NCBI GenBank assembly: GCA_947502635.1
Contig: CANNAN010000008.1
Span: 186,001-250,000 of the forward strand
Source of the DNA: an uncultured Flavobacteriaceae bacterium
Lineage (GTDB): Bacteria; Bacteroidota; Bacteroidia; Flavobacteriales; Flavobacteriaceae
Direction: 5' to 3'
Length of the DNA stretch: 64,000 bases
The notes under the pieces were generated by a model that was given only the letters and a program-made list of their open reading frames with translations, had not been told where the DNA came from and searched no databases. The position numbers and the translations under genes were made by a program. The number at the start of each line of letters is the position of its first letter. Position 1 is the first letter of the stretch. This document shows, in pieces, positions 8,905 through 58,443 of the stretch.

Positions 8905-10638
8905 TTATTTCTCTATTAGATAATCATTAATAACCAAAACATCCAATCCTGTAGTATAAAACAAACCAATAGCATCTTCAACACTATGTGCCATAGGTTT
9001 TCCCATAATATTAAAACTTGTATTTAAAATTATAGGAACTCCTGTGAGTTTGTGAAACTCGTTAATAAGTTGATAATAAGATTTATTATACTCCTTTTTT
9101 ACGGTTTGTAATCTCCCTGTTTTATTGGCATGAACAACAGCAGGAACGACATCCCATTTGTCTTCCTTAAACTTAAGAGTTCTTTCCATATATGGTGTTT
9201 CCTGATAGTGCTCAAAATAATCTTCTGCATGTTCGTGTAAAATTGAAGGAGCAAAAGGTCTAAACTCTTCACGAAATTTAATGTTAAGGTTAATCTTATC
9301 TTTCATGTTTGCTGGTCTTGGATCTGCTATAATCGATCTGTTTCCAAGTGCTCTTGGTCCAAATTCAGCCCTTCCTTGACACCAACCAATCAATTTTCCT
9401 TCAGCTAAAAGAGCAGCCGTTTCTTTGTGAATGGTTAAAGGAATATGTCTTATATTTTTAATGCCTCCTAATTTATATAATCGTTTAAGAGTTTTGTCTG
9501 AGAAAGTAGAACCAAGATATGGTGATACAAATGGTTTTTTGCCTATAGTGATATGCGGTCGTTCTTCTTTTAAAGCTAACATAGCAGAACCAATAGCATT
9601 CCCATCATCTCCTGGTGCAGATGGCACATGCAAGTTTTTATATGGTAATCTGTCTACTACAGTACCGTTATAGGAAGAGTTTAAAGCACAACCTCCACCT
9701 AAAACAAGATTATCATTATTTGTTGAAAAATGATTTATTACTTGATCCATTCTTTTTGAAAAGAATGCTTGCCCGCTAGCAGCAATATGACTTGCCTCCC
9801 AAGGATCCCCTCCTTTAGGGCGCTTAAATTTCATAAGTTTTGGAAAAATTTCTTCAATCTTTGATATATTGGGGTATTTTAACTTGCCATTTTCAAATTC
9901 ACATAAATCATTTAAAAGAGCGTCAACTTCTTCAATAACTTTTCCATAAGGAGCAAGTCCCATAACTTTCCATTCTTCACCTTTAAACCAATCAAAACCA
10001 CATAAAATAGTAATTAATTCGTAAAGAAAACCAAGGCTTTCTCTTCCTTTTTGAATTTTTTGTAGCTCGACTTTATCATTTTCATAAGAAAAGAAACTTA
10101 AGGCTCCAGATTCTCCAAAACCATCAGTTATAAAGCAATCTGCTTTAGCAAAAGGACTGGAATAACAAGCATAAGCGGCATGAGCTAAGTGATGTTCGTA
10201 AGATTTATGTATCACTTCTTGAATACCAAATGCTTCATTAATGGCTAGCTGTATTCCTCTTCCAGTATTTTTTAAAAAATTATAGTGTACGCCCATCATG
10301 TTATAAATAGAAGTTCTTGTAAAAATGAACTTTGATGGTGTATCTAGATTTGGATCGGATAATGTAGAAGGGCTAAAAAAGCCAAATCCCTCAAGTCGAT
10401 CCATTAATTTTTTATGATCAGTACTCCAGCTATCAGCAATTGTAAAAGTAGCACCAGGCTCGCAATACTCTTTTAAAATACTACTAATCCCGATATGATC
10501 TGGAGGGATATTAAAACCTCTTTTAAATTGCATTCTTCGCTCTGTACTTTCTGCAAATAGGATTTTTCCATTTTCGTCAAGTATAGCTAATGAGGTATCG
10601 TGGAATGTGTTTCCTAGTCCAATGTAATAATGAGCCAT
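8905..10638 (-). CDS. NodU/CmcH-family carbamoyltransferase
   Basis: This 577-residue protein has the normal length of the family that moves a carbamoyl group from carbamoyl phosphate, through carbamoyl-adenylate, to a hydroxyl of a natural product. Visible motifs are the HHLAHAAYACYSS metal-site segment near residue 152, GGGCALNSSYNG near 316, and the YrdC-like CQGRAEFGPRALGNRS segment near 423. It is the last gene of the minus-strand operon, 10 bp after the FAAL-PKS gene, so it almost certainly tailors the cluster product. The probable acceptors are one of the two hydroxyls made by the ketoreductases, or a hydroxylated side chain (inference). The start at 10638 is followed directly by the conserved N-terminal segment YIGLGNTFHDTSLAIL. 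Confidence 0.92.
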   Translation of the reverse strand: MAHYYIGLGNTFHDTSLAILDENGKILFAESTERRMQFKRGFNIPPDHIGISSILKEYCEPGATFTIADSWSTDHKKLMDRLEGFGFFSPSTLSDPNLDTPSKFIFTRTSIYNMMGVHYNFLKNTGRGIQLAINEAFGIQEVIHKSYEHHLAHAAYACYSSPFAKADCFITDGFGESGALSFFSYENDKVELQKIQKGRESLGFLYELITILCGFDWFKGEEWKVMGLAPYGKVIEEVDALLNDLCEFENGKLKYPNISKIEEIFPKLMKFKRPKGGDPWEASHIAASGQAFFSKRMDQVINHFSTNNDNLVLGGGCALNSSYNGTVVDRLPYKNLHVPSAPGDDGNAIGSAMLALKEERPHITIGKKPFVSPYLGSTFSDKTLKRLYKLGGIKNIRHIPLTIHKETAALLAEGKLIGWCQGRAEFGPRALGNRSIIADPRPANMKDKINLNIKFREEFRPFAPSILHEHAEDYFEHYQETPYMERTLKFKEDKWDVVPAVVHANKTGRLQTVKKEYNKSYYQLINEFHKLTGVPIILNTSFNIMGKPMAHSVEDAIGLFYTTGLDVLVINDYLIEK

Positions 10639-10648
10639 GTGATATGGG

Positions 10649-13600
10649 TTAAATGTTGTAGTTTTGGTTGATTAATTTTTCTATTTCTGAATTTGATAAG
10701 GTCTCAATTTCTTTAATTAATAAAGGATCATCGTATAATTCATTTTTTTGATTAGTACGCTCTTGTTCTTTATAATCTTCTATTGATATTCTATCTATTA
10801 TAAAATCTGCAAGATTATTTATTGAATTGTGCTTGAAAAGAATAGATACAGCAACAATTTCACTGCCTAAAAACTGATTTAAGCGGTTTCTATATTGATT
10901 CAAACTTAAAGAGTTAAAACCTATCTCAAAGTATGATTTTGTGTTAGATAAAGGTGTGTTTTGATCAAATTTTAATAGGTCTTTACCAATAGCATTCATT
11001 TCATCAAGAAGATGTTCCTTTATCTCTTTTTTTGTAAGCCCTTCGGTGCTAAATCCTTTTTGTTTTTTTTCTGACTTAACATTTAAATTCTCAATAGGCG
11101 CAAAACAATCTTTCATAAAGTCTGTTGTAGCTACATCGGTTAAAATATCTAAGGCTAATAATTCACTATGTTTCGAGATAAGTGCCTGTTCCAATGTTTT
11201 AAGACCTTGCTCCATAGAAAATGGACGAATCCCTAGATGTGAAAAAGCACTAATTAAATCTACAGCCATACCACCCTCATTCCAAGGGCCCCAAGCAATT
11301 GATTTTATAGGAAGACCTTGCTCTTTTCTCAATTGAACAAGGTTGCTTAAATAGGAATTGGCAATAGCATATGAGGTTTGACCAGGATTAGCAAAGAAAG
11401 CAGATGCAGACGAAAATAAAACAAAGTTTTCGGGTTTTAAATCTAAACTAAATTTATGAATCCAATAACTTCCATGTGCTTTAGGATAAAGTACTTTTTC
11501 AAAACTTTTTTCAGTTAGCTTCCCACAAAGTTCATCGTGTAAACTTCCTGCTAAATGGTATATGCCTTTTATTGTATCATGTTTAGCCTTAATCTGGTTG
11601 AAAAACTTTTTCACATCATCTAATAGTCCAATATCACATTTTATCGCATAGATGTTTCCTTCAAAATTAGTATTGGTTTCTTCAATCCATTTTTTACGAT
11701 CATCATTAAGATTATTTCTTAATGGAATATAAATATGTGTGGCTCCTTTACCTAAAAGATGATGACAAAGTGCACTTCCAATTGCTCCAAAACCACCTGT
11801 AACCACGTTTATTCCTTCATTCTTAGTATTCCTTATATGCTGTTCTTTCCTTTTGTTCGTTTTTTTCCAAATAGGCAGGTAATTTTCTTTAGAGGATTTA
11901 GTCTTTTTAGGATTCCAAAAAATTAAGTCAATATGATCGCATTCTTTAGAAAGATTGCGATACATGGCAATAAATGGTAATTCTAAATAGTTATGATTTT
12001 TAATATCAATGCTTTCTGAAAAATTGTTGAGGTTAGCCATGAGATAAATGGTAACCTTATTTTCCTGAGAAGCTAGATAATTGAGAAGTGATAATTGCTT
12101 TTTCAAAAGCATTTCCAATGGTTCAGGTTCTGGATTAGAAATATGCGGGATTTGAATGCATAACTGAATTTCAGAATTAAAATCTACCCAATCATTAACT
12201 TTAGATATGTCTAAGTTTTTTAGTGAAAAATCAGATAGTAAATTGGAAGTTTCTTTTTCTAGAGTTGTAATTACGTAAAGTAGTTTTTGCTCATCTGGCT
12301 CTAGAATCTCTTCTCTTTCATTTCTCCTTGAATCTAAATAATAAAAAGAGTCAACAATATTATGAGGTTTATCTTCAATATTATGCAATATTCGATTTGG
12401 GAGTGCTGGTTGTATCCAGTAAGATTTTTCAATCCAAATACGATTAGGAAGTGTTATGAATTCTCCTCCATAAATAGTTTTTTCTATATTCCAATTAACA
12501 TCAAATCCAAGTTCAAATAATTTCCCAAGCATATCCTGGAATGATTTAAAACTGGATTTCTCTTTCTTTAATGCAGAAAGAGAAGCGCCATTAAAGTTGT
12601 CTTTTCCTTGGGAAATGGCAACAAGTGTGTTAGATGGTCCTAATTCAATAAAAGTGGTAATACCATCATCAATCATAGTATCAATACAAGCATTAAAATT
12701 GACAGTTTCTCTAATATGATTAGCCCAAGATTGTGAATTCTTTAGGGCGTTATTTGAAGCAATTAAACCAGTCTTATTACTGTAAATAGGTATTTTTGCG
12801 TTATGAAGTGTTTTTAGTTTTATAAAATCGTTAAATTCATCTAAGATGGGATCCATTACTTTGGAATGAAAAGCATGTGATACTCTTAATTGAATATTAA
12901 AAATATCATGATCATCAAAAACTTTTATTGCTTTTTTGATTTCGTTATTAAGACCTGCAAATACTGTTTGTGAATCACTATTAACCACAGCAACATCCAA
13001 ATCTACTTGATACTCTTTTAAAAGAGTTTCAGATTTATACCTGTTGGTCATTACCGATACCATACCTGTTTCTTTAGGTAATGTTTGCATTAATTTCCCT
13101 CTTCGTGTTACAATTTGCAACATGTCTTCGAGATTCATGACACCAGATATACAAGCAGCTACATATTCTCCAATGCTGTGACCACAAACTACATTTGCTT
13201 TTATTCCATATGCTAATAGTAGTTGATATAGTGAATAGCTTAAACTACATATGACAACTTGAGTATATTGTGTTTGATCTAATAATTGTTGGTGTTCTGG
13301 ATTAAAAATAAGTTCAGTTAACTTTATTGGTAATTCACTTTCTAAAATAGTTTCACATTTTAATAAATTGAATTTAAAGATAGGAGAGAGGTCGAATAAT
13401 TCTTTCCCCATGCCACTATATTGTGACCCTTGACCGCTAAAAAGAATTGCTAATTTTTTATCTGATTTCTGAAGAATATCAGTGCTTTTAAAGTTTAATA
13501 ATTGTTCATGAAGCTCATCGGTATTTTCAAAACTAAAAGACTTTCTAAATTCAAATAAAGATCTTTTTGTATTCCACGAGTAGCATAGATCTAAAGGATC

Positions 13601-16600
13601 TGGTTTATATGATAAACTATATTCAAGAAGTTGTTCAATTTCTTGAATTAATGCATCTTTTCGATGAGATGATAAACAAATTACATGATAGCGTTTACCT
13701 TGTTTTTGTTGTGCTGGAGCGTTCTTTTTATTGAAAGCTTCTACAATTACATGCGCATTAGTACCACTAAAACCAAAAGCGCTTATTCCTGCTATGATCG
13801 GCTTGTTTTTATTGTAATCGATGGTTTGATTAGCTACTTTGACATTAAGTTGATCCCAAGGAATTAAAGGGTTTGGGTTTTTAAAATGTAAGTTAGGCGG
13901 TATTTTACCGTGTTTAAATGAAGCTAATACTTTTAGAAAACCAGCTATTCCTGCAGCTGATTCGGTATGACCAATATTACTTTTAATAGAACCAAGAATT
14001 AAAGGTTCAGTTAGGTTTCTGTTCAGATTGTATGCTTTGTCTAAAGCTTGAATCTCAATGGGATCGCCAAGTGGAGTCCCCGTACCATGTGTTTCTATAT
14101 ATGAAACTTGATTAGGATCAATATGACCTTTGCGTAAAGCTTTTAGGATAAGGTTTTGTTGCGCTAAACCATTAGGAGCTGTTAATCCATTACTTCTTCC
14201 ATCTTGATTGATGGCAGAACTTTTTATGACACCAAGAATTTTGTCATTATTTTCAATAGCATCATCTAGACTTTTTAAGAATACCATGCCTACCCCTTCA
14301 GACCTTCCATATCCGTCTGCCTTCTCATCAAAGGTTTTACACTTACCATCTTTAGATAATGCTTTAACTTGACTTAAGGCAATACTTCCTTCTGGTCCAA
14401 AAATTAAGTTAACGCCACCAGCTAATGCTTGTGTACATTCACCTTGTTGAATAGCTTTACATGCTAAATGCAAACTAACTAAAGACGATGAACAAGCAGT
14501 GTCGCTAGTAATAGCTGGGCCATTTAAATTAAGAAAATAACTAATTCTTCCAGCTGCTGTACTATGCAATATACTAGTTAAAGAATAGTGGTCAATTTTT
14601 TTTGTGTCACCAGACCTAATATGAGCCTGTGTATAATCAATGTTACTTAGTCCAATGTAAACACCTGTTTCACTTCCAGAAATTTCTTTTTTAGTTATTC
14701 CTGCATCTTCAAGAGCATTCCATGTTGATTTTAATAATAGTCGCTGTTGTGGGTCTAAAGATGTTGCTTCATCTTCAGACAATCCAAAAAATGAAGGATC
14801 AAACATGTCAGAATCATCAATAAAATACCCTTTATCGGTATACATTTTTCCTTTTTCAGGAGCTCCAGGAGAATAGAATTCATCTTTTGGCCACCTATCG
14901 AAAGGAATACTACCAACAACATCTTTTTCATTTAATAAAAGATCCCATAAGTTGTCTAGGTTTTTTACACCACCAGGGAATATACACGAAGCACCTATTA
15001 CTGCAATAGGTTGAAAAGGAATAACCTGTTTATTTATATTGTTATGATGGGCTGAATTAGCGGTATTCTTTTTAGTAATATATTCAATGAGTTCATTAGG
15101 GGTGCTATACTCAAATAGATCTATTGCCGAAATAGATCTATTAAAAAAATGGCTAAGTTTTTCTGCCAGTAATGCAATCTGCATAGAAGAACACCCTTGA
15201 TCCATTAAGGACTTATCAAAATCAAATACCTTTTTTCCAAAGCAACTTGATAGTGCTAACCTGAACGTCTTATTCGCATCCGTTTCATCTTCTGAAGAAG
15301 ATTCGGTTGAAATGGTTTTTAGATACTCAGTAACCAGAACATGCCGTTTAATTTTACCACTAGTTGTTTTCGGAATTGATTTGATGTAAACAAATTTAGA
15401 AACATGAAGCCCAGAAGAATCAGATAAGATATGTTTTATATTATTCTCTAATTCTGGATTATTGGATTCTTTTTTTCGTTGTTTTATAAAAACAACAAGT
15501 TGCTCCGTTTGTTCTATTAAGTGTGACGTGATTATAACGTTTCCAACTAATGTTTCAATATGATTTTCAATTAATTGTTCGAGATCATGAGGAAAATAAT
15601 TTTGCCCGTTAATAATGATCATCTCTTTTTGTCTGCCTAGAATAAGTAATCCAATGGAAGATATAGCACCTATGTCTCCAGTTTTTAACCAACCATCTTC
15701 GGTAAATATATTTTTTGTAGCTTCTGGATTGTTGTAATAACCTGAAGTAACATTTTTGCCTTTTATTTGAATATGACCAACATAGTCATTTGGAAGTACG
15801 GTGTCTTCAGCGTCACAAATTCTTGTTTTTTGATGTGGTATAACAGTACCTAAAGCCATAAACTGACTTTTTGATCGTGTCTCATCTAAAACTATTTTAT
15901 GCCCTTCTTTAATTAGATTTCTATCTAAGCATAGGTATTTTATTGAATCGCCTGGATTGGGAATACTAACAACTAAGCCAGCTTCTGCCATTCCGTATCC
16001 ACAATACATGGTATTTCCTTTTAAACCATAAGGCTCTAATTCTTTTAGAAATTTTTTAGTTAAAGAAACATCAATGGGCTCTGCTCCATTAAATATTAAG
16101 CGCACAGCATTCAGGTTATGAAGACTATCTCTTTCTGGTTTGAAATTTTGTAAAAAGTATCGATATCCGAAATTAGGTGAAAATAAAACACTTGCTTTTA
16201 TCTTAGCAGCGTATTGAATCCAAAAAACAGGATATCGAACAAAAAAGCTTGGGGGCATTAAATGCTGTTCACAAGAAATTCCTAAGGGAAGTAAATGAGT
16301 TCCTAAAAGACCCATATCATGACTCATGGGTAACCAACTTAGAAAAATGTCTGAATTAGACATTTTAGCTTTTTTCTTAATACCATCAATATTGTATAGC
16401 ACATTTTGATGCTTCATGATAATCCCTTTTGGATTCGATGTAGAGCCAGAAGAATATTGTAAATAAGCAATATTGTCTTTACATACATTACTATCAATCT
16501 TGCCGATAAAATTGGTGTCGAATTGCTCAAAAGAAATTATTTTTTCTTTCGATAATTCAATACTGTTAAAAGCGCCTGATTTTTGAATTAGAGAATTAGA

Positions 16601-16963
16601 GAATTTTTCATTGCTTATAATGAATGGATTCTTTAATTCTTGTATGATATGTTTTAACTTTTTTGCTCCAGATTCATTATTAGTGATACTTAGCGGGACA
16701 GCAATAAAGTTTCCGAATATGCATGCCCAGAACATGGGGATAAAGTCACAGGGTTCTGGCAAAACAATGATAACAGGATTGCCGTTTGGGACATTTTTTG
16801 ATTGTAAAAAGCCTAATTTTTTTAATGCCTGTTCTTTTAATTCTAAATATGTTAAAGATGTTATATCATCTTGAGATTTTATAAAAGTTATTGTTTTTTT
16901 AGGATCTGCTGCATTAAAAAGACCATGCAGTGTTTGTGGTTGGTTGGTCAGGGACGTATTCAT
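10649..16963 (-). CDS. Loading/first extension PKS: FAAL-ACP-KS-AT-KR-ACP
   Basis: This 2104-residue protein activates a fatty acid and performs the first two-carbon extension. Domains in order: fatty acyl-AMP ligase (1-550; YSSGSTSNPKG near 172, TSGKIKRH near 540); ACP (serine in DQGCSSMQ near 591); ketosynthase (655-1075; active Cys in DTACSSSL near 823, His in HGTGTPLGD and NIGHTESAAG); acyltransferase (1180-1480; GHSIGEY near 1264, HAFH near 1369, which indicates malonyl-CoA); ketoreductase (structural half from about 1520, TGGFGAIG near 1724, active SYAIAN near 1873); ACP (GFNSLS near 2018). There is no dehydratase or enoyl reductase, so a beta-hydroxyacyl chain results. The KR has Asp in its LDD-equivalent (SLHDE) and no Trp eight residues before the Tyr, which suggests B-type stereochemistry. 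The C-terminal tail (LLIKEIETLSNSEIEKL) looks like a docking peptide. It holds the only AT in the window. Confidence 0.95.
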   Translation of the reverse strand: MNTSLTNQPQTLHGLFNAADPKKTITFIKSQDDITSLTYLELKEQALKKLGFLQSKNVPNGNPVIIVLPEPCDFIPMFWACIFGNFIAVPLSITNNESGAKKLKHIIQELKNPFIISNEKFSNSLIQKSGAFNSIELSKEKIISFEQFDTNFIGKIDSNVCKDNIAYLQYSSGSTSNPKGIIMKHQNVLYNIDGIKKKAKMSNSDIFLSWLPMSHDMGLLGTHLLPLGISCEQHLMPPSFFVRYPVFWIQYAAKIKASVLFSPNFGYRYFLQNFKPERDSLHNLNAVRLIFNGAEPIDVSLTKKFLKELEPYGLKGNTMYCGYGMAEAGLVVSIPNPGDSIKYLCLDRNLIKEGHKIVLDETRSKSQFMALGTVIPHQKTRICDAEDTVLPNDYVGHIQIKGKNVTSGYYNNPEATKNIFTEDGWLKTGDIGAISSIGLLILGRQKEMIIINGQNYFPHDLEQLIENHIETLVGNVIITSHLIEQTEQLVVFIKQRKKESNNPELENNIKHILSDSSGLHVSKFVYIKSIPKTTSGKIKRHVLVTEYLKTISTESSSEDETDANKTFRLALSSCFGKKVFDFDKSLMDQGCSSMQIALLAEKLSHFFNRSISAIDLFEYSTPNELIEYITKKNTANSAHHNNINKQVIPFQPIAVIGASCIFPGGVKNLDNLWDLLLNEKDVVGSIPFDRWPKDEFYSPGAPEKGKMYTDKGYFIDDSDMFDPSFFGLSEDEATSLDPQQRLLLKSTWNALEDAGITKKEISGSETGVYIGLSNIDYTQAHIRSGDTKKIDHYSLTSILHSTAAGRISYFLNLNGPAITSDTACSSSLVSLHLACKAIQQGECTQALAGGVNLIFGPEGSIALSQVKALSKDGKCKTFDEKADGYGRSEGVGMVFLKSLDDAIENNDKILGVIKSSAINQDGRSNGLTAPNGLAQQNLILKALRKGHIDPNQVSYIETHGTGTPLGDPIEIQALDKAYNLNRNLTEPLILGSIKSNIGHTESAAGIAGFLKVLASFKHGKIPPNLHFKNPNPLIPWDQLNVKVANQTIDYNKNKPIIAGISAFGFSGTNAHVIVEAFNKKNAPAQQKQGKRYHVICLSSHRKDALIQEIEQLLEYSLSYKPDPLDLCYSWNTKRSLFEFRKSFSFENTDELHEQLLNFKSTDILQKSDKKLAILFSGQGSQYSGMGKELFDLSPIFKFNLLKCETILESELPIKLTELIFNPEHQQLLDQTQYTQVVICSLSYSLYQLLLAYGIKANVVCGHSIGEYVAACISGVMNLEDMLQIVTRRGKLMQTLPKETGMVSVMTNRYKSETLLKEYQVDLDVAVVNSDSQTVFAGLNNEIKKAIKVFDDHDIFNIQLRVSHAFHSKVMDPILDEFNDFIKLKTLHNAKIPIYSNKTGLIASNNALKNSQSWANHIRETVNFNACIDTMIDDGITTFIELGPSNTLVAISQGKDNFNGASLSALKKEKSSFKSFQDMLGKLFELGFDVNWNIEKTIYGGEFITLPNRIWIEKSYWIQPALPNRILHNIEDKPHNIVDSFYYLDSRRNEREEILEPDEQKLLYVITTLEKETSNLLSDFSLKNLDISKVNDWVDFNSEIQLCIQIPHISNPEPEPLEMLLKKQLSLLNYLASQENKVTIYLMANLNNFSESIDIKNHNYLELPFIAMYRNLSKECDHIDLIFWNPKKTKSSKENYLPIWKKTNKRKEQHIRNTKNEGINVVTGGFGAIGSALCHHLLGKGATHIYIPLRNNLNDDRKKWIEETNTNFEGNIYAIKCDIGLLDDVKKFFNQIKAKHDTIKGIYHLAGSLHDELCGKLTEKSFEKVLYPKAHGSYWIHKFSLDLKPENFVLFSSASAFFANPGQTSYAIANSYLSNLVQLRKEQGLPIKSIAWGPWNEGGMAVDLISAFSHLGIRPFSMEQGLKTLEQALISKHSELLALDILTDVATTDFMKDCFAPIENLNVKSEKKQKGFSTEGLTKKEIKEHLLDEMNAIGKDLLKFDQNTPLSNTKSYFEIGFNSLSLNQYRNRLNQFLGSEIVAVSILFKHNSINNLADFIIDRISIEDYKEQERTNQKNELYDDPLLIKEIETLSNSEIEKLINQNYNI

Positions 16964-19490: not shown

Positions 19491-19531
19491 TAATTTGCGT
19501 TTAGGTAATGTTGATCATGGATTGCTTTATC

Positions 19532-19539
19532 CAAAAATA
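19532..19539 (-). promoter_or_regulatory. Putative -7 element of the SPFH-exporter-PKS operon
   Basis: On the minus strand these eight bases read TATTTTTG, matching the Bacteroidota consensus TAnnTTTG. They lie 42 nt upstream of the SPFH start codon, which leaves a short leader. The nearest TTG-like -33 candidates are only about 14 nt away rather than the usual 19, so only the -7 element is well supported. Confidence 0.45.
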
Positions 19540-19757
19540 AGTAATTTCAACAACAATGTATTATTTTATTTACAATAGTTGTAAAGGAATAATATTATTA
19601 GAATAATTTTATTGGTCTAAACTATAGTTAAAAGGATGTGTTTTAATAGATTTCGCTTTCAGTTTTAAGATTTTTTTATTTGATAAGTTATAGCGAGTTT
19701 AAGTAAAGATCAAATAATCACCATTGTAAGGTGAAATAATAAATGTACGAAATTTAG

Positions 19758-19952: not shown

Positions 19953-20032
19953 AACCCACTTGGAGTGGCGATTATTTAAGTAAAATTCTTTTTTAATATA
20001 TAGGATTTTTCTTCATTATAGTGTAGGTTTAT

Positions 20033-20063
20033 TTTTGATATAAAATTTTAAATGCTATATTTG
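20033..20063 (+). promoter_or_regulatory. Bacteroidota-type promoter of the DUF697-thioesterase-PPTase operon
   Basis: TTTTG at 20033-20037 and TATATTTG at 20056-20063 are separated by 18 nt. This closely matches the Bacteroidota housekeeping promoter (TTTG, about 19 nt, TAnnTTTG). Transcription would start near 20070 and leave a leader of roughly 27 nt before the ATG at 20097. This is the clearest promoter in the window. Confidence 0.7.
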
Positions 20064-20826: not shown

Positions 20827-21516
20827 ATGAAAATTTATTTTTTGCCTTATGCTGGAGGCAGTGAAATGTCCTATAATAAATTAACGGCTGAATTTCCTGA
20901 AAACAATGTTACTTCTATTCAATGTAGTTTACCAGGTAGAGGTCGGAGAGTGGGGGAAGCGTTTTTGGATGATGTTTCAGCAATGGCCGAGGATATTTTA
21001 AGCCAAATTAAAACATCACTTCAGGGAGATGTTTATATGATTTTCGGACATAGTATGGGTGCACTTTTAGCTGTTCATGTACTGTCATTATTAAAATCTT
21101 CTAAATTACCATTACCATTACATCTATTTTTGTCAGGAAGAACAGGAGTTATTAAAAAACCTGCGCCTCCATTAAAATGCGAGATGAATTCAAATCAATT
21201 AAAAAACGCACTTAATAATTTAGGAGGGGTTTCTGAAGAGGTCTTGAGAGATGAAGATGTTATGTCTTTTTTTGAACCCATAATCAGAAATGATTTTAAG
21301 GCAATTGAATATTACTTACCGATAACATTTCATGATTCGAATTTAAAAACAACAGTTTATTTTGGTGATAAGGATGAATTTTCTTTTGAGGAAGCAGCTA
21401 TGTGGCAAAGAATTGCTGATAAAAAGATTGATGTTAAGTGTTTTTCAGGAGGCCATTTTTTTATTTTTGATCATGCTGAGGAAATTGTAAAAGATATGAT
21501 TTCTAAATTTGAATAG
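20827..21516 (+). CDS. Type II (editing) thioesterase
   Basis: This 229-residue alpha/beta hydrolase belongs to the external thioesterases of NRPS/PKS systems, which remove wrong or stalled groups from carrier-protein arms. Motifs: N-terminal YFLPYAGGSEMSY; the nucleophile in FGHSMGALLA near residue 76; the Asp in FGDKDEF near 181; and the catalytic His in GGHFFIF near 209. Length and motif spacing are standard for the family. It starts 7 bp after the 59-aa membrane gene, and the phosphopantetheinyl transferase frame follows within about 10 bp. Together they form a service group for the assembly line. Cytoplasmic location is expected, as there is no signal peptide. Confidence 0.93.
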   Translation: MKIYFLPYAGGSEMSYNKLTAEFPENNVTSIQCSLPGRGRRVGEAFLDDVSAMAEDILSQIKTSLQGDVYMIFGHSMGALLAVHVLSLLKSSKLPLPLHLFLSGRTGVIKKPAPPLKCEMNSNQLKNALNNLGGVSEEVLRDEDVMSFFEPIIRNDFKAIEYYLPITFHDSNLKTTVYFGDKDEFSFEEAAMWQRIADKKIDVKCFSGGHFFIFDHAEEIVKDMISKFE

Positions 21517-50728: not shown

Positions 50729-51599
50729 TAAATCATTACTTAATCAATTAAAGTCTACGGATATATTAGAAGAATCCATGCCTACTAAAAAAGAGGGAAA
50801 AGCACAATTAGCGATCGATGAAGCAAAATGGCATACAGCTCAGGTTTTAGCAGAAAAAAAAGCGAATCGATCAGCAAATGTGATGAAATATCTATTAGCT
50901 GTGACATATCGTATTATGGCTATGGAAGGGTTAGACGAAGGAATTAGCGGGCATATCTCTTTGAGAGTTCCTGGAGAACCTGATGCCTTTTGGGTAAACC
51001 CATTTGGGATGTTATTTGAAGAAGTGACACCAGAAAATATTATTAAAGTAAATGAAGAAGGGAAGGTTTTAGAAGGAGATCACCCTGTTAATGTTGCTGG
51101 ATTTTGTATTCACGCAGCAATTCATCAAGCAAGAAAAGATGTACATGCAGTAGTACACACGCACTCACCTCTTGGGGTGGTTTTTAGTGCTACAGGAAAA
51201 CGATTAGTATCCATTGATCAAAACAGTTGTATGTTTTTTGAAGATCATGGCGTTTATAATGAGTATAACGGGCCTGTTACAGAAGAAGAAGACGCTTCTA
51301 AAATGATTACAGCTCTAAGCGATAATCATACTTTAATTCTTAAAAATCACGGTACAATTACTGCGGCAGAAGAAATTGAAACGGCTGCGATGTTAATGAT
51401 AGCTGCAGAAAGAGCTTACCACGTTAACCTTCAGGCATCAGGACAAAATAAAATGATAGAAGTAAGACCAGAAGTAGCACGCAAAACAAAATCATGGATT
51501 GCGAACCCTATCGGGTTAAGTATTGAGTTCGAAGCTTACATGAGAAAAGCAGAAAGGGTCTATCCAGATTTATTAAACTACAAACCTTCCGAATTATAA
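50721..51599 (+). CDS. Class II aldolase/adducin-family protein
   Basis: This 292-residue protein has the class II aldolase fold. The metal-binding HTHSPLG lies near residue 146, with a third His in LKNHGTI near 208. The N-terminal EGISGHISLRVPG and WVNPFGMLFEEVTP segments are conserved in the family. Members are zinc-dependent aldolases or epimerases, but some act in antibiotic pathways as non-heme iron oxygenases (the CloR/NovR type), so the reaction cannot be assigned. The first 70 residues are a charged extension. The gene overlaps the NRPS upstream by 8 bp and ends 1 bp before the next NRPS, so it is firmly inside the operon. It may supply or modify an unusual building block, perhaps for the module without an adenylation domain (speculation). 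Confidence 0.85.
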   Translation: MHNKSLLNQLKSTDILEESMPTKKEGKAQLAIDEAKWHTAQVLAEKKANRSANVMKYLLAVTYRIMAMEGLDEGISGHISLRVPGEPDAFWVNPFGMLFEEVTPENIIKVNEEGKVLEGDHPVNVAGFCIHAAIHQARKDVHAVVHTHSPLGVVFSATGKRLVSIDQNSCMFFEDHGVYNEYNGPVTEEEDASKMITALSDNHTLILKNHGTITAAEEIETAAMLMIAAERAYHVNLQASGQNKMIEVRPEVARKTKSWIANPIGLSIEFEAYMRKAERVYPDLLNYKPSEL

Positions 51600-51600
51600 A

Positions 51601-54600
51601 ATGGCTATTAAAACAGGATACAAAACAGCACCACAACAACACTATAGAATTAAAAGGAATACAAGAGCCACAATGGTCGTTGAGATTTCTTTAGAAAATG
51701 AGATTGTTGATGCAGTTATAGTACAGTGTAAATCAAAACTAAATTCAGAATTACAGTTTAAGTCAATATTTTATGTTGATTCCGATAATGGATTGGTTTT
51801 ACAGCAGTATGGTGATGAATCACGGATTCTTTTTTCCGAAGAAATTATGGATAGAAGTGAATCATTGAGTTTATTACGATTAAAAGAAGAAAGTAGAATA
51901 CTTAATCTTGAAGATGGTGCCTTAGCACATGTAACTTTTTATACAAGTTCTAAAGAAATTATAGTAATCCTATCAACTTTTTCTTGTGTTTTAGATGAAC
52001 AAAGTTGTTATCTTTTGGCAAAAGACTTGCTGTTTAATACTTCTGAAGTAGTTTCAGAAGCATCCAATATTTCGTATTTACAGTATGCAAATTGGCAGTG
52101 TCAATTAGTAGAAGAAGCAGCCGAATTTGAGGAAGAAATTCCAGTCGCTAACAATGGGTTTCATGGTTCAAATTGGTTGTATCCAGTCACATTAAATACA
52201 GAGCAAAAGTATTCCAAAAAAAGCAAGTTATTTTCTGATGATTCAAGAGGAAAACTTGAACAATTATCAATAGAAACGGGATGTTCTGTTAACGCTATTT
52301 TCCTTTCTGTTTTCTCAGTACTTTGTTACCGATTAAACTTAGCCAATAATGCCATACTTGGAGTCCAAATAAATGGACGCTATTTTGATGAGATTAAATC
52401 TCTTAAAGGTGTTATGTCTAAAACATTACCTTTTTACCAAGATATTAAAGAAGAAGAAACAATTTACGACTTAATAAAAATAAGTCAAAAAAAGTTAGAT
52501 GCTTTATCAGAAAGACACCCGCATTACAACGAGAACTTTGAAATGGCATCTGCCATACAATTTGCTTATAATAAAATAGAAGATCCAACTAAGCAGTTAT
52601 TGGATTGTGATTGGGTATCACCTTCCGAAACATTTGGAATGCGTTATGAGATAAATCATGACGAAGCCTATATAGAACATAAAATTAGATATAATCCAAA
52701 CACCTTAGAGTTAAGCTTTGTAGAAAATGTTTTAGATACAATTAATGCGTTTTTTGAGAGTCTGTTTAATAACCCTGAATTGGATGTAAAGACACTTAAA
52801 CTCAATTTTAATCAAGAATTTATTATACGCCCAGAGGCTACATATAATGTTGTGAAGGATGCAACGCTCCATGCTGTTTTTAATCAGGTGTTTAGTGAAA
52901 TGACTCAAGATATTGCATTGAAATCTTCTGATACAGAATTGACTTTTGGAATGCTTCAATCTATGGCAAGTCAGGTCGCTCATTTTATAGCGCCATTTAC
53001 CCAAAAGGAAGGAGAAGGTATTGCGGTTATTTTAGATCAAGAAATAGATTTTCCTGCTATATTAATAGGAATTTGGATGCGAGGCGCTTATTATATTCCT
53101 ATAGAACCCGATTGTCCAGAAGAAAGAATAGCAGAAATAATAAGAGATAGCGGTGCGAAAGTATTATTATCAAATAAGCAAAGGAATATACAAGGTTTAA
53201 AGATACCGATGCTTAATTGGTCTATGGCTTTGTGGAATAAAGATTGGAAACCGGAACCAACTTGGGCACCTAGAAAACCAGAATCTATTGCTTACATGAT
53301 TTATACTTCTGGCACATCTGGAAAGCCAAAAGGTGTTTTGATTCCAGATAGTGCCTTAATCAATTATACCAATTGGATCGATCAAAGATTTCATATAGGA
53401 AAAGGAGATGTAACCAGTATTTTGTCTTCATATGCCTTCGATTTAGTATATACTGCATTATGGGGGGGCTTATGTAACGGTGCTCAAATAAATATACCAG
53501 CAACAGATATTTTGCAAAGTGCAGAAGCATTAGTTGACCACATAGTAAATCAAAAACTAACTTTTGCTAAATTAACGCCATCCCACTTAAAAATAATCAA
53601 AGAAGCTACAAATATTAATAATTTAGAAAATGCCGCTTTAAAGTATTTATTTTTAGGAGGGGAACCCATTCAAATAGAAGACGTAAAAGAATTTAAAAAA
53701 AGAGCAAAACAATGTCGAGTGATTAATCATTATGGGCCTACAGAAACCACTATTGGAGTTATTTTTACAGAATTACCAGATGATATTCGTACTTATAGTA
53801 ATAAACCTTGGATAGGTAAACCCATTGCAAATACAATCGCTTTTCTTTTAGATTTGGAAGACAATCCTATTGGTTTAGGAGGAATTGGTGAGTTAGCAAT
53901 TTCAGGTCATTGCCTTTCTTCTGGTTATTATAACAGACCAGAATTGAATGAAGAGAAATTTATCCAAATATCTTTAAAAGAAGCGACCTTTACCGTATAC
54001 AAAACAGGAGATCTGGCCTATAGAGATTATAATGGTAATATTGTTTTAATGGGCAGATCTGATGATCAAATTAAAATTAATGGACATCGCATAGAGCCTA
54101 AGGAAATTAAAGAGTCTATTAAAGATATTAATGGTGTTAATGACTGCCATATACAAGTTATTAACCAAAATAATAGCCAACGTTTATTAGCTTTTGTAAA
54201 GGGGCCCGAAAGTATACGTGAGAATGTATTACATACTTTAAAACGACAATTGCCAGATTATATGATTCCAGAATGTGTATTTAAAGATGAATTTCTATAT
54301 ACAGGTAATGGAAAGATAGATGGTTCTTTAATGACAGAGGTATATTTAGAAGGGAATAGTCAAAAAATAGTGATAGAACCAACAACGCCATTAGAAGCAG
54401 CATTTTCTGTTTTATGGAAGGAGGTTTTGGGAATTGATACTATTTCAACTGAAGACAATTTTTTTGAGATTGGTGGCGATTCAATAAGAGCTATACAGTT
54501 AGTTTCCAGAATGATTAAAAAAGGATATAAAGTTGAGGTGAGACATCTTTTCGAATATCCAGAAGTTAAATTGTTAGCTCAGTTTTTAGAACCAGAAAAA

Positions 54601-57600
54601 AAAGTAATAACAACAAAAAAAGAAATACAAAATAAACAAGAACCCTTTGCCTTATCTCCTTTGCAGGAAGGCATGTATTATTTGTCATTAATTACAGAAA
54701 AGCAAACCCATATTATTCAAAGGCAATTTCAGTTTACAGGTAAACTTGATGTAGAAAGACTTTCTAAAATAATAAAAGAAACCTCAAATGAATTCCCCGT
54801 TTTAAATTCTAGGTTTTTTATGTCAGAATTACAAATTCCAATGCAGGAATTTGATGTAGACAGAACGATTCCTGTAAACTTATATCAGTTAGAAGATAAA
54901 AGTAAGGAAGCTCAATTTTTTGAATTAGAACAGGCTAAAAAAGATCAACTTAAAGAAGGTCTTGATTTATCAAAAGATCCGTTGTTTAAAGTCGATTTAT
55001 GGCAAACAGGTGTTGAAGAACATCAACTATTATTAACATACCATCATATTATTTTAGACGGTTGGTGTTTTCAAATACTTGCTAAGAAAATTATTGAAGC
55101 TTATTATTCTAATACGCCAATATCGAATGATGGGGCTCCACCATATTCAGCGTTTATAAATTGGATTCAAAATAGGGCATCAAAAGATGATCTACAGTTT
55201 TGGAAAACGTACTTAAAAGACTATAGTGGTACAACAATGCTTAAAGATTATGCGTTTTCTGCAAACGAAAGCAAGGCATATCAATATGCGGTGAGTGAAG
55301 GTACCGTTAATGAAGACGTGTTTTCTGCTTTGCAGGCATATTGTAGAACAAGTCAGGTAACATTAGGTTATATATTACAACAGATATGGGGATTATTATT
55401 ATCTAAATATACTGGTCGAGAAGATGTGGTGTTTGCGACCACAGTTTCTGGAAGACCTCCAGAATTAGTCGATTCAGAAAATACGGTTGGTTTATTTATT
55501 AATACCATGCCTTATCGCGTACAATTCGAAAGCGAATCATCATATAATTCTTGGCTAAAAACGGCGTCAAATGTTTATCCAGAATGGTTGAGCAATCAAT
55601 TTGTAAAACTAACAGATATTCAATCACTCACTACAAGTAAAGAAAACTTATTAAAGCATCTATTTGTACTAGAAAATTATCCTTTAAGATCTTCTGAAAT
55701 GCATGATGAAGCATCAAGTTTAAGTATTGAACAAAAAGGAAGCGCTATTCATTTGAATTATGAATTGTCATTAATCTTATATCCTGAAGACGATTTAAAA
55801 ATTCAATGGATTTATAATGGGAAAACCTACAGTGAAAAGTTTATAAGGCAACTTAATAATCACTATGAATTATTAATAAAACAACTTGTAGACACGCCAG
55901 AGATAAAATTAAAAAAATTAGTTTTATGTGAACAAGATACGTTAATCTCAAATGCCATAGAAATACCCCAATCAAATAAAAGTAACTTTTTAAATAAGAT
56001 TGAAACTAACTTAAAATTATTTAAAAATAACATTGCAATAAAAACAGATCAAGCGCGTATCACCTACCAAGAATTAGATGAACAATCGGAAAATCTAAAA
56101 TTAAAGCTATTAAATAAATTCCCAAATGGAGGTGTTATTGGTATCTATTCTAATCAAGGCATAGAAACCATCGTTAGTTTACTAGGAGCCTTAAGAGCTG
56201 GGATGCCTTATGTCCCTTTAGACCCTAAGCAAGCGCGGTTACGGTTGCAAAATATAGTAGAAGATGCTGATGTAAATGGTATCTTAGTTGATGGTGCATT
56301 AGTTGAAAAATCTAAAGAACTTTTTGTAAATAGTAATTGCTTCACAAGTGGAGAACTCCTTTTAAATGAGCAAAATATTGAGAAACCGAACATTGTTAAC
56401 CCAGAAACAGAAGCTTACCGAATATTTACGTCTGGCTCTACAGGCAGGCCAAAAGGATGCTGTATTAAACACAAACATTTATATAATCTTTTTACTGGAA
56501 CGAAACGGTCTTTTGACTTAAATTCTGAAGATAATTGGTTGATGTTACACTCTTTTGGATTCGATTTTTCTGTATGGGAAATTTATGGAGCACTATGGTC
56601 TGGTGCCAGTTTGTTTATCCCTGAAGCAAATTTAGGAGCAAATCCGCAAAGGCTAAAAGAGGTTTTGAAATCAAATAAGATTACCATATTTAATACAACA
56701 CCAGGCGTTTTTTATTCCTTAATTGATACAGAGACCGATTATAAAGAACATTGGGAATCGACTATCCGCTATACTGTTTTTGGTGGAGATAAACTGGAAC
56801 CTTATAGATTAAAAAACTGGTGGGTTAATAAAGATTCATCGATGATGAAATTAATTAACATGTATGGCATTACCGAAACAACAGTTCATGTTACATACAG
56901 AGAAATTACAGAGCATGATATACGGTCTGAAAATAGAATAAGTCCTATTGGAAATCCTTTTGATGGTGTGCAATTATATTGTCTGGATTCTTATATGAAT
57001 GCGCTTCCAGATGGAATAATAGGAGAGTTATATGTTGGAGGAGGCGGTGTTTGTGAGGGCTATTATAAAGATTTAGAATTGAACAAGAAATCTTTTTTCA
57101 AACATCAATATAATAACAAGCTCAGGATTTATAAAAGTGGTGATATGGCTTTTAAAGCTCATAATGAATTTAATTATGTAGGTAGAGCAGATAAACAAGT
57201 CCAAATACGAGGTTTTAGAATTGAACTCGAAGAAATTAAAAAAGCGCTATTGGAGCATGAATTAATTCAAGATGTTGGTGTTATTAAAAAAGAAGGGGCT
57301 GTAATTGAAGAAGATAGAATAGAGGTGTTTTTAAAACTTAAAGACAATAATAAAATGCTTGCTTCAAATGAGCTTAGGGGTTTTTTAAGTAACAGCCTAT
57401 CTTGGTATATGGTACCGTCTAAATATAATCAAGTAAGCGATATACCATTATCGGCTAATGGTAAATTAGATTTAACAATTATTGATCGTTTTTTAATTAA
57501 CGAAGAAAAAATAGATAAACAAGAGAATCTAAGTTACATACAATATGTGATTTTACGAATGTGGCAGGATTTGCTAGGCGTAAAAAATATAGGTCTAAAC

Positions 57601-58443
57601 GATGATTTTTTTGATTTAGGAGGGAACAGCCTTTTAGCTATTCGCTTAATAACAGAAATTAATAAAAAATTAAAGACAAAAATTGATATAGGTGAAATTT
57701 TTAGCCAACGCACCATAGGATTGTTATCTAAGTGTATAGATAAAGGAAGTTTTTCTCAATTAACAGCACCCTATCAGGTGTTTAATTCAGTAAAGCCTAA
57801 AAAAGTTTTCTTTTTCCCACCTGCGTTTGCTTATGGATTTGTTTTTGCAAGATTAGCATTACATTTAAAAGATGTTGAGGTAATAACATTTAATTATATA
57901 GAACATCAAGATGCTATAGGACAATATGTTAAGTTTATGATCGATTTACAAGATACTGGTGATTTTGTAGTTGCTGGGTTTTCAGCTGGTGGTAGCTTAG
58001 CTTTTGAAGTAACTAAAGCTTTAGAAGCGAAAGGAAGGTGTGTTTCTGATATTATTTTATTAGATTCTAAAATGAATAAAACAGCAGAAAACTTTAGTGA
58101 CTCCCAGTGCGAAGAGATTGCAGATCATTTTTTGAGTGATCCGAGGGCAGAAGAGTATGTTTCAGGAGAAGAACAAAAGAAAATGATGTGGAACACAATA
58201 AAAAAATGTGTAAAATTTATCCATTCACTTGAAAACAATGGAAAGATTGATTCCAATATTCATTTAATTACTTCAGATGATAATCATGGTAATTTAGAGA
58301 GAATAAATACTTGGAGAGAAGCTGTAAATGGCAGTTTATATACCTATGAAGGAAAAGGAAAACATTCAGAAATGTTAGATACTATAAATTTTGAAGAGAA
58401 TAAAGATCACTTTCATGCTATAATTAATGACTTACTCAAATAA
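51601..58443 (+). CDS. Terminal NRPS modules 6-7: Cdeg-A(Asp)-T-C-A(Thr)-T-TE
   Basis: This 2280-residue NRPS adds the last two residues and releases the product. Residues 1-420 are a third condensation-like domain without the catalytic motif (STFSCVLDEQS near 126). A1 (425-910; YTSGTSGKPKG near 566) reads DLTKFGHIGK, an Asp-type code. Its carrier has GGDSIRAIQ near 958. The C domain (1015-1440) opens with LSPLQEGMYYLSL, the D-donor style, and has HHIILDGWC near 1147, yet no epimerase precedes it. A2 (1470-1960; FTSGSTGRPKG near 1609) reads DFWNVGMVHK, the Thr code. Its carrier has GGNSLLAIR near 2006. The thioesterase (2050-2280) has GFSAGGS near 2126, an Asp in LLDSKMN and the His in GKGKHSEML. 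Cyclisation onto the beta-amino group, as in iturins, is likely; hydrolysis or a lactone through a hydroxyl is possible. Confidence 0.93.
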   Translation: MAIKTGYKTAPQQHYRIKRNTRATMVVEISLENEIVDAVIVQCKSKLNSELQFKSIFYVDSDNGLVLQQYGDESRILFSEEIMDRSESLSLLRLKEESRILNLEDGALAHVTFYTSSKEIIVILSTFSCVLDEQSCYLLAKDLLFNTSEVVSEASNISYLQYANWQCQLVEEAAEFEEEIPVANNGFHGSNWLYPVTLNTEQKYSKKSKLFSDDSRGKLEQLSIETGCSVNAIFLSVFSVLCYRLNLANNAILGVQINGRYFDEIKSLKGVMSKTLPFYQDIKEEETIYDLIKISQKKLDALSERHPHYNENFEMASAIQFAYNKIEDPTKQLLDCDWVSPSETFGMRYEINHDEAYIEHKIRYNPNTLELSFVENVLDTINAFFESLFNNPELDVKTLKLNFNQEFIIRPEATYNVVKDATLHAVFNQVFSEMTQDIALKSSDTELTFGMLQSMASQVAHFIAPFTQKEGEGIAVILDQEIDFPAILIGIWMRGAYYIPIEPDCPEERIAEIIRDSGAKVLLSNKQRNIQGLKIPMLNWSMALWNKDWKPEPTWAPRKPESIAYMIYTSGTSGKPKGVLIPDSALINYTNWIDQRFHIGKGDVTSILSSYAFDLVYTALWGGLCNGAQINIPATDILQSAEALVDHIVNQKLTFAKLTPSHLKIIKEATNINNLENAALKYLFLGGEPIQIEDVKEFKKRAKQCRVINHYGPTETTIGVIFTELPDDIRTYSNKPWIGKPIANTIAFLLDLEDNPIGLGGIGELAISGHCLSSGYYNRPELNEEKFIQISLKEATFTVYKTGDLAYRDYNGNIVLMGRSDDQIKINGHRIEPKEIKESIKDINGVNDCHIQVINQNNSQRLLAFVKGPESIRENVLHTLKRQLPDYMIPECVFKDEFLYTGNGKIDGSLMTEVYLEGNSQKIVIEPTTPLEAAFSVLWKEVLGIDTISTEDNFFEIGGDSIRAIQLVSRMIKKGYKVEVRHLFEYPEVKLLAQFLEPEKKVITTKKEIQNKQEPFALSPLQEGMYYLSLITEKQTHIIQRQFQFTGKLDVERLSKIIKETSNEFPVLNSRFFMSELQIPMQEFDVDRTIPVNLYQLEDKSKEAQFFELEQAKKDQLKEGLDLSKDPLFKVDLWQTGVEEHQLLLTYHHIILDGWCFQILAKKIIEAYYSNTPISNDGAPPYSAFINWIQNRASKDDLQFWKTYLKDYSGTTMLKDYAFSANESKAYQYAVSEGTVNEDVFSALQAYCRTSQVTLGYILQQIWGLLLSKYTGREDVVFATTVSGRPPELVDSENTVGLFINTMPYRVQFESESSYNSWLKTASNVYPEWLSNQFVKLTDIQSLTTSKENLLKHLFVLENYPLRSSEMHDEASSLSIEQKGSAIHLNYELSLILYPEDDLKIQWIYNGKTYSEKFIRQLNNHYELLIKQLVDTPEIKLKKLVLCEQDTLISNAIEIPQSNKSNFLNKIETNLKLFKNNIAIKTDQARITYQELDEQSENLKLKLLNKFPNGGVIGIYSNQGIETIVSLLGALRAGMPYVPLDPKQARLRLQNIVEDADVNGILVDGALVEKSKELFVNSNCFTSGELLLNEQNIEKPNIVNPETEAYRIFTSGSTGRPKGCCIKHKHLYNLFTGTKRSFDLNSEDNWLMLHSFGFDFSVWEIYGALWSGASLFIPEANLGANPQRLKEVLKSNKITIFNTTPGVFYSLIDTETDYKEHWESTIRYTVFGGDKLEPYRLKNWWVNKDSSMMKLINMYGITETTVHVTYREITEHDIRSENRISPIGNPFDGVQLYCLDSYMNALPDGIIGELYVGGGGVCEGYYKDLELNKKSFFKHQYNNKLRIYKSGDMAFKAHNEFNYVGRADKQVQIRGFRIELEEIKKALLEHELIQDVGVIKKEGAVIEEDRIEVFLKLKDNNKMLASNELRGFLSNSLSWYMVPSKYNQVSDIPLSANGKLDLTIIDRFLINEEKIDKQENLSYIQYVILRMWQDLLGVKNIGLNDDFFDLGGNSLLAIRLITEINKKLKTKIDIGEIFSQRTIGLLSKCIDKGSFSQLTAPYQVFNSVKPKKVFFFPPAFAYGFVFARLALHLKDVEVITFNYIEHQDAIGQYVKFMIDLQDTGDFVVAGFSAGGSLAFEVTKALEAKGRCVSDIILLDSKMNKTAENFSDSQCEEIADHFLSDPRAEEYVSGEEQKKMMWNTIKKCVKFIHSLENNGKIDSNIHLITSDDNHGNLERINTWREAVNGSLYTYEGKGKHSEMLDTINFEENKDHFHAIINDLLK

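Follow-up and report, generated by a model that had tools for sequence, protein, structure and literature searches.

A flavobacterial polyketide-peptide assembly line predicted to make a beta-amino lipopeptide with beta-hydroxylated Asn and Asp residues

An assembly line that follows the logic of the iturin synthetases of Bacillus, found in a distant phylum, raises the question of how much of it is kin to them and what it would make. Such a line occupies positions 8905-58443 of a 64,000-nucleotide stretch of DNA (the window; C8:186001-250000, contig CANNAN010000008.1 of assembly GCA_947502635.1) from the 5.44 Mb genome of an uncultured Flavobacteriaceae bacterium, running from a carbamoyltransferase gene (start 8905) through a thioesterase (TE) domain (end 58443). 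A sequence-only reading had called it an iturin/mycosubtilin-style lipopeptide line owed to deep homology or striking convergence. Profile calls with Pfam and NCBIfam, together with motif checks, show an intact fatty acyl-AMP ligase (FAAL)/polyketide synthase (PKS)/aminotransferase (AMT)/nonribosomal peptide synthetase (NRPS) line with seven peptide carriers, and all 11 condensation-family matches in the genome lie inside this cluster. The parts listed by that reading are present with their motifs intact: FAAL and acyl carrier protein (ACP), a ketosynthase (KS)-ACP-AMT-condensation (C) protein lacking an acyltransferase (AT), the seven carriers and the terminal TE. We conclude that this is probably a complete hybrid PKS-NRPS line for a beta-amino lipopeptide carrying beta-hydroxylated Asx (Asn or Asp) residues.

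Degenerate condensation domains at the Asn and Asp modules

The seven NRPS carriers of P0005-P0008 (Table 1) all have the carrier serine, and the C-terminal TE of P0008 carries GFSAG. Aligned specificity codes of the adenylation (A) domains are DLTKIGEIG (A1), DASTIAAVC (A2), DFTKIGEVG (A3), DVWHFSMVE (A4), DLTKFGHIG (A6) and DFWNVGMVH (A7), the last of which we take to be a Thr code, as the sequence-only reading did. Two bacillomycin D A domains, which presumably select Asn, have the code DLTKIGEVG. Cyanochelin B, whose structure is given in PMC12628792, supplies the yardsticks DLTKIGHVG for Asp, DVWHFSLID for Ser and DAWTIAAVC for Phe. The alignment and these yardsticks support residues 1-6 as Asn, aromatic (Phe or Tyr), Asn, Ser, none and Asp, in agreement with the earlier calls, and the only epimerization (E) domain follows A3.

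What distinguishes the three Asx modules, and is absent from the earlier reading, lies in front of their A domains. A degenerate C domain directly precedes all three (modules 1, 3 and 6) and none of the other three A domains. The first domains of P0005, P0006 and P0008 read KASALYFDSWS, SASQLSTDKTS and STFSCVLDEQS in place of the HHxxxDGWS of ordinary C domains, whereas A2, A4 and A7 are preceded by C domains with HHIIFDGWS, HHIILDGWS and HHIILDGWC, respectively. By profile the degenerate domains (I1, I3 and I6, entered as C*1, C*3 and C*6 in the genome-wide scan, where the last two lie above the Pfam cut-off and the first below it) belong to the C family; surfactin and tyrocidine synthetases match best, and the match to linear gramicidin synthetase is nearly full-length. 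The same order, namely intact C, TauD (free or fused), HH-less C and A(Asp), is found at both beta-hydroxy-Asp modules of cyanochelin B, whose counterpart motifs after TauD are NLPSLCADATT and TLPALCADTKS (PMC12628792). Cyanochelin B differs in that Asp alone is involved and each of its two modules has a hydroxylase, and in being a siderophore with a putative ferric receptor gene adjacent (PMC12628792).

The resemblance extends to a contest between two hidden Markov models (HMMs) built from reference loci. Fifteen C-like domains of at least 380 residues without HH occur in these loci, followed by A domains coded for Asp (six), DSALIAEVW (three), DATIVGEVG (one) or Cys (two), or by none that could be read (three). 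Four were excluded from the interface model, two before Cys-coded A domains (taken as cyclization domains) and two in Bacillota AMT loci with no A domain read after them; the ordinary C model used the 56 domains with HHxxxDGx[ST] out of 78 with HH. Interface minus ordinary C scores are +28.3, +29.6 and +6.7 bits for I1, I3 and I6, and -53.9 to -182.9 bits for the other eight C and E domains of the window. When loci were left out one at a time, the difference was positive for 10 of the 11 reference interface domains and negative for every one of the 24 ordinary C domains from those loci, which are part of the 56 modelled; the one reference classed as ordinary C lies in L110 at 1802 and precedes the code DSALIAEVW. 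The interface domain was reportedly described by Reitz et al. in 2019. That work is cited in PMC12971057 and PMC12628792, and the literature matches listed in our search include none on NRPS interface domains.

A candidate hydroxylase stands directly before module 1. P0009, a TauD-type iron/2-oxoglutarate (Fe/2OG) enzyme, forms a 99/99 clade with flavobacterial TauDs of two genomes (G567 and G686), which likewise lie directly before modules of the form I-A[Asn]-T-C-A[DASTIAAI], and is most likely an Asn hydroxylase. We suggest that in modules 1, 3 and 6 the degenerate C domain forms no peptide bond, this step being left to the C domain with which the preceding protein ends, and that it is likely a recruiting domain, a docking surface on which the TauD enzyme would hydroxylate carrier-bound Asx.

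It is unlikely, in our estimate, that the degenerate domains are mere relics or serve for docking between proteins, that no Asx is hydroxylated and that TauD acts elsewhere, for instance on the aromatic residue or on the acyl chain. Their strong divergence and low interface scores would suit such an origin, as would their location, all three, at protein N-termini, the usual site of docking domains; their restriction to Asx A domains, the TauD directly before the first of them and the layout shared with the cyanochelin B beta-hydroxy-Asp modules argue for recruitment of a hydroxylase instead.

Several observations nevertheless weigh against a simple hydroxylation scheme. Absolute interface scores of the three domains are low (55-63 bits, where the ten positive references reach 264-561), and I6 (C*6) favors the interface model by only 6.7 bits. 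In the reference loci, nine DLT-type (Asx) A domains come after a C domain with HHxxx[D/G], four of them in TauD-linked loci (L108, L112, L114 and L116), and therefore neither an Asx code nor a TauD neighbor need imply a degenerate domain. No clean rule emerges from the clusters with TauD-aldolase fusions discussed below: in G532 and G981 the ordinary C model scores higher for the degenerate domain beside the fusion (C64/I44 and C76/I42), and the lead of the interface model is only 7 bits in L137 and 3 bits in L155. No TauD lies directly before modules 3 and 6, and a single TauD of the right type would have to serve three modules; P0009 falls apart from the fused TauDs in the tree, and a TauD of the fused type is missing from the window. 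The peptide part has irregularities of its own. The C domain ending P0005 (38951-40273), between residues 2 and 3, would be the one to attach residue 3; its motif is altered, reading NHLIADNW. The fifth carrier has no cognate A domain, and a heptapeptide is thus not assured; A-less C-PCP (peptidyl carrier protein) stretches after I-A(Asp) occur also in L146 and L151. C7 (54613-55995) scores as D-accepting although module 6 has no E domain, by a classifier with a small training set (10 D-type domains, of which 7 were right on cross-check, and 53 L-type, of which 47 were right).

P0011, a second, remote TauD-like protein whose membership of the cluster is unsure, has HxE motifs, yields no Protein Data Bank (PDB) match at E <= 0.01, and may help P0009 to serve the three modules. 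Together with an amidase (58573-61549) it is convergent with the NRPS operon. TauD genes also occur in other settings: a second NRPS cluster of G647 (L146) has TauD alone, I-A(Asp)-PCP-C-PCP and a carbamoyltransferase-like gene, and two cyanobacterial clusters (L041 and L025) combine TauD and degenerate-C NRPS modules with a separate AMT-like gene.

Kinship with the iturin synthetases

Shared FAAL/KS/AMT logic with the iturin line is indeed seen, and the AMT itself lies in an iturin-type clade. A 74-row tree groups it with Bacillota iturin-type AMTs (11 rows at 100/96, 12 rows at 100/99), and a 34-row tree recovers the same group (13 rows, 96/95), in which the branch of one row, L004, is abnormal, with a length of 10; a nine-row group containing L004 likewise has an abnormal branch in the 74-row tree. 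The approximately unbiased (AU) test rejects a union of the window AMT with the AMTs from two other lipopeptide lines of Bacteroidota (p-AU 0.02, an earlier tree having been seen before the test), and retains placements both nested within and sister to the Bacillota AMTs (p-AU 0.205 and 0.145). Its nearest sisters are stand-alone Bacteroidota frames of 438 and 439 amino acids (aa) on contigs of metagenome-assembled genomes (L040, 304-1620, and L046, 475-1794), with no NRPS domain downstream and with less than 500 bases of sequence before the frame. Because these sisters are Bacteroidota, the AMT may have been transferred in either direction. Its occurrence is sporadic: within the family, 16 of 397 genomes have a match at E <= 1e-75 (the host among them, the remainder being 42-46% identical), and within the genus 2 of 12 do, the host and one more whose AMT is 44% identical and belongs to a different line.

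The remaining parts lead elsewhere. In a 60-row tree KS1-3 lie outside the iturin KS clade (8 rows, Shimodaira-Hasegawa (SH) support 99) and within an 18-row group (SH 100) of KSs from Burkholderia, Thiotrichaceae, Myxococcales, cyanobacteria, Chitinophaga and Brevibacillus. The FAAL falls inside a wider Bacteroidota and Bacillota clade (12 rows, 100/100) and outside both an 11-row group (82/83) and the iturin set (6 rows, 97/95), from which one iturin-type FAAL, L034, is likewise missing; its best identity, 40%, is to a Bacteroidota FAAL. An early 15-row FAAL tree had seemed to favor iturin kinship, a signal that was gone after four Bacteroidota FAALs were added. Among 16 loci compared, A1 and A3 (both Asn) share 31% and 33% identity with the Asn A domains of bacillomycin and at best 35% and 36% with domains of flavobacterial loci, a small difference. 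P0005 and the G567 protein are colinear over residues 107-2011 (28% identity) and, given this and the TauD grouping, the layout of the Asn-aromatic start is at least as close to that of flavobacterial hydroxylase-linked modules as to that of iturin.

Was the cluster, then, inherited or transferred whole from Bacillota, as a copy of the iturin/mycosubtilin cluster whose residues 4-7 later changed? The AMT clade, the Asn-aromatic-Asn order with its FAAL/KS/AMT logic, and the bacillomycin C domains that are the best matches of C5 and C7 in the same 16 loci (31% and 29%) speak for it. We regard it as highly improbable, since KS and FAAL lie outside the iturin clades and the Asn A domains are no nearer to iturin, the bacillomycin Asn modules have HH C domains where those of the window are degenerate, the pattern of E domains differs, and no bamD-like separate AT exists besides a FabD-sized protein. 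We reject whole-cluster homology on the evidence of the KS, the FAAL and the A domains. Of the AMT, KS and first A domains, which the sequence-only reading had named for comparison with the iturin synthetases, the AMT shows kinship; the KS tree and the identity comparison of the A domains do not bear it out. Where an iturin synthetase would have Asn-Tyr-Asn with E at residues 2 and 3, the window shows the codes Asn-aromatic-Asn with E after residue 3 only. The line is thus a mosaic in which the amination part alone is demonstrably kin to the Bacillus antifungals. These comparisons bear out the iturin interpretation only in part, with one homologous part and a common logic, and give no evidence that the order of the peptide was inherited from iturin.

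Iturins have seven residues, the number of peptide carriers here. With bacillomycin D and mycosubtilin the window shares the FAAL start, the AT-less KS-ACP-AMT-C protein, the Asn-aromatic-Asn codes and the AMT clade. Unlike them it has two extra PKS modules with ketoreductase (KR) domains, KSs and a FAAL of other clades, interface-like domains, TauD, a single E among residues 1-3, a carbamoyltransferase, Ser-?-Asp-Thr, and no dedicated separate AT. In bacillomycin bamD is separate, E follows A domains 2 and 3, and both Asn A domains follow C domains with HHxxx[D/G]; those of the window do not. No dedicated malonyl transferase of the BamD/FenF type was found beside the line, and the genome holds the P0002 AT and one other acyltransferase match, a 312-aa frame on a different contig that we take to be FabD.

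Nor is the occurrence of such lipopeptides in a distant phylum, which that reading stressed, new in itself. The chitinopeptins of Chitinophaga are Bacteroidota cyclic lipopeptides with a 3-amino fatty acid, in tails of the 3-amino-9-methyldecanoate type, and with beta-hydroxy-Asp residues, three in chitinopeptin A; they bind iron and are active against Candida (PMC9248904). Compared by description, they differ from the window in having 14-15 residues, hydroxylation ascribed to a CmlA-like enzyme and a C-starter domain in three of four clusters (PMC9248904). Occidiofungin/burkholdine is a glycolipopeptide of eight amino acids with beta-hydroxy-Asn (PMC10897925), with its FAAL within a multidomain protein (PMC11837247). 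A Burkholderia arboris locus that we read as of this type (L023) shares FAAL, several KS modules with KR, AMT and TauD with the window, but its TauD has no supported grouping with P0009. The parts covered of a paper on Aquimarina lipopeptides (PMC12677607) do not describe this line.

An aldolase-fold protein before the Asp module

The gene before the Asp module protein P0008 encodes P0010, a class II aldolase-fold protein. Its PDB matches, with their E-values, are 4xxf (1.1e-41; deposited as a fuculose-1-phosphate aldolase), NovR (3e-41), TqaM (1e-28), another 'aldolase' (5e-28), adducin (3e-26) and 1fua (4e-9); NovR stands level with 4xxf, and its kinship to P0010 is therefore real yet not exclusive. 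The three His metal-ligand positions of the NovR/TqaM family are present, HxH at 146-148 and NHG at 209-211 being conserved in all seven sequences (P0010 and six relatives) as well as in NovR and TqaM. CloR/NovR oxidatively decarboxylates a mandelate-type alpha-hydroxy acid at a three-His iron site (PMC13111500), and TqaM converts 3-amino-2R-hydroxy-3-methylbutanoate to aminoisobutyrate (PMC11880133, PMC12192607). Both share the class II aldolase-type sequence and the HxH and NHG motifs with P0010; they act on free small acids (PMC13111500, PMC11880133, PMC12192607), whereas the close relatives found for P0010 are fused to TauD in NRPS clusters.

Close relatives are few. Matches at E <= 1e-50 occur in 2 of 395 genomes of the phylum including its own, at four places in 3 of the 249 genomes from the genus of G647, and in 1 of 295 of the class of G981, which is G981 itself; the relative in G532 was reached via its TauD. 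Among the best 30 of 40 plasmid records, only relatives of 33-41% identity appear. All six relatives found in the sampled Bacteroidota, besides P0010 itself, are fused behind TauD, in frames of 616-656 aa within NRPS clusters, both domains being Pfam-confirmed in the two fusions checked. Four of the six (L137, L151, L153 and L155) lie directly before a degenerate-domain-A(Asp) protein; in L151 and L153 the preceding gene ends in an intact C domain, and 3.5-4.3 kb free of NRPS matches intervene in L137 and L155. The other two, in G532 and G981, stand after a degenerate-C-A(Asn)-PCP-E protein, and their clusters include I-A(Asp), FAAL, KS, KR and AMT as well. These two genomes (loci L134, L142 and L159, and L140, L157 and L158, respectively) have lines with FAAL-KS-KR, KS-AT-AMT, I-A(Asp) and the fusion. 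That two further Bacteroidota families combine this cassette with FAAL and AMT hints at a broader lipopeptide family.

On this basis we tentatively consider that carrier-bound Asp may be converted to an aminomalonyl residue, TauD making beta-hydroxy-Asp and P0010 removing one carbon by oxidative decarboxylation. The idea arises because the HOOC-CH(OH)-CH(NH2)- end of beta-hydroxy-Asp is the motif that TqaM decarboxylates. It would require a free Asp carboxylate, which fits a place before Asp and not Asn modules, and fits the four of six fusions directly before an I-A(Asp) protein. The other possibility we hold open, with equal reserve, is that P0010 acts on beta-hydroxy-Asp as a retro-aldolase, giving Gly, or as an epimerase, giving another beta or alpha isomer. 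Pfam and NCBIfam both class it as a class II aldolase and its best PDB match, 4xxf, was deposited as one, but NovR matches equally well, TqaM follows, and the studied L-fuculose-phosphate aldolase, 1fua, lies far behind. L-ribulose-5-phosphate 4-epimerases have the same fold as class II aldolases, and the D-type C7 without an E domain would suit an epimerase; against this, the C domain after I-A(Asp)-T scores L-type in the four fusion clusters and in G532 (L142). Given the same L-type scores, the simple idea that the aldolase makes D-Asp is not supported. An open-access-weighted literature search returned nothing joining class II aldolase, nonribosomal peptide synthetase and hydroxylase.

Predicted product, neighboring genes and meaning

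How would the whole line work? The chemical steps proposed here are predicted from the domains, motifs, codes, gene order and kinships observed. On the lipid side the KS cysteines are intact (DTACS/NTACS), AMT keeps its lysine motif YGK, and the P0002 AT carries GHSIG and HAFH, the latter presumably marking a malonyl type. PKS modules 2 and 3 lack an AT yet retain a post-AT-linker-like segment (LPNYPF and LPNYVF, compared with LPNRIW of P0002), and a profile scan gave no dehydratase or enoylreductase match in the PKS modules, only KR. The FAAL would place a fatty acid on P0002 for three malonyl extensions, the first two reduced to hydroxyls and the third transaminated by the AMT, to give a 3-amino-5,7-dihydroxy acyl chain; modules 2 and 3 would be charged in trans by the P0002 AT or FabD. 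The NRPS would then add Asn, Phe or Tyr, D-Asn, Ser, one unassigned residue, Asp and Thr, P0010 would act on the hydroxylated Asp, and the TE would free the chain, with cyclization predicted as likely. The carbamoyltransferase would cap one hydroxyl and the ABC transporter would export the product, which in our best reading is most likely a 3-amino-polyhydroxy-acyl, O-carbamoylated, beta-hydroxy-Asx lipopeptide.

Beta-hydroxy-Asx residues and a lipid tail recall the cyanochelin pattern, and the chitinopeptins, with their 3-amino fatty acid and three beta-hydroxy-Asp residues, bind iron (PMC9248904), so that the product could be chiefly a metallophore, a lipopeptide siderophore. This seems rather improbable given that two of the three Asx codes are for Asn, and that no TonB receptor or iron-uptake family is found in 24 of the 26 listed window open reading frames of at least 120 aa, a count leaving out the 15 kb upstream (L002). 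The Asn amide is a poorer metal ligand.

Table 1. Features of the cluster and its flank, in window coordinates
Feature	Position	Strand	Basis
P0001, O-carbamoyltransferase	8905..10638	-	PF02543 + PF16861
P0002, FAAL-ACP-KS-AT-KR-ACP, loading and first extension module	10649..16963	-	Pfam/NCBIfam, motifs
Cyclic peptide export ABC transporter	16982..18637	-	TIGR01194 331 bits, cut-off 286.2
P0012, separate thioesterase, probably type II	20827..21516	+	PF00975, GHSMG
4'-Phosphopantetheinyl transferase	21692..22183	+	PF01648
P0003, KS-KR-ACP, no AT, post-AT-like LPNYPF segment retained	23351..26887	+	Pfam, motifs
P0004, KS-ACP-AMT-C, no AT	26887..31785	+	Pfam/NCBIfam, motifs
AMT domain, class III aminotransferase, expected to install the beta-amino group	29119..30381	+	PF00202, trees
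P0009, TauD-type Fe/2OG hydroxylase	31826..32836	+	PF02668; TauD tree
P0005, I1-A1(Asn)-PCP-C-A2(aromatic)-PCP-C	32849..40276	+	Pfam, aligned codes
I1, interface-like degenerate C before A1, no HHxxxDG	32849..34033	+	motif, HMM, profile
P0006, I3-A3(Asn)-PCP-E	40278..44564	+	Pfam, aligned codes
I3, interface-like degenerate C before A3	40278..41477	+	motif, HMM, profile
P0007, C-A4(Ser)-PCP-C-PCP-C	44564..50728	+	Pfam, aligned codes
Residue-5 module, C-PCP without A domain, carrier serine intact	47681..49333	+	Pfam, motifs
P0010, class II aldolase-fold protein, NovR/TqaM-like	50721..51599	+	PF00596, PDB matches, fused relatives
P0008, I6-A6(Asp)-PCP-C-A7(Thr, presumed)-PCP-TE	51601..58443	+	Pfam, codes, motifs
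I6, interface-like degenerate C before A6	51601..52845	+	motif, HMM, profile
P0011, second remote TauD-like protein, cluster membership unsure	58573..59514	-	PF02668 22.4 bits, below cut-off 27

Genes for SPFH/Band 7 and DUF697 proteins, possibly for self-protection or unrelated to the line, separate the cluster's two halves (18657-20618). The contig stops 3.9 kb past the window, where a DDE transposase (L001 957-2342) and an integrase-core frame (L001 3386-3886) are found. G+C content is 0.29-0.35 over the entire window. Neighboring genes encode type IX secretion sorting domains and a porphyranase domain, and the AMT of G353 (L018), a genome of the same family as the host, is nearly identical to that of Kordia zhangzhouensis (L069); a marine member of the Flavobacteriaceae is the natural reading of these features, and the host is probably a marine flavobacterium.

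These results replace the headline of iturin homology with a testable mosaic picture, in which three Asx modules have likely hydroxylase-recruiting domains, and would bring the Asn codes of an AMT lipopeptide within the reach of interface-domain chemistry. If P0010 does decarboxylate, the code-based call of residue 6 and of its counterparts elsewhere would be wrong, and the Bacteroidota lipopeptides would possess a new carrier-bound editing reaction. The action on carrier-bound beta-hydroxy-Asp of a NovR/TqaM-like enzyme that is elsewhere fused to a hydroxylase is the target this offers to enzymology. Beta-amino lipopeptides of Bacteroidota are known already; the combination found here is a fresh variation on that theme, and the TauD/NovR-like pair is the part that could amount to more.

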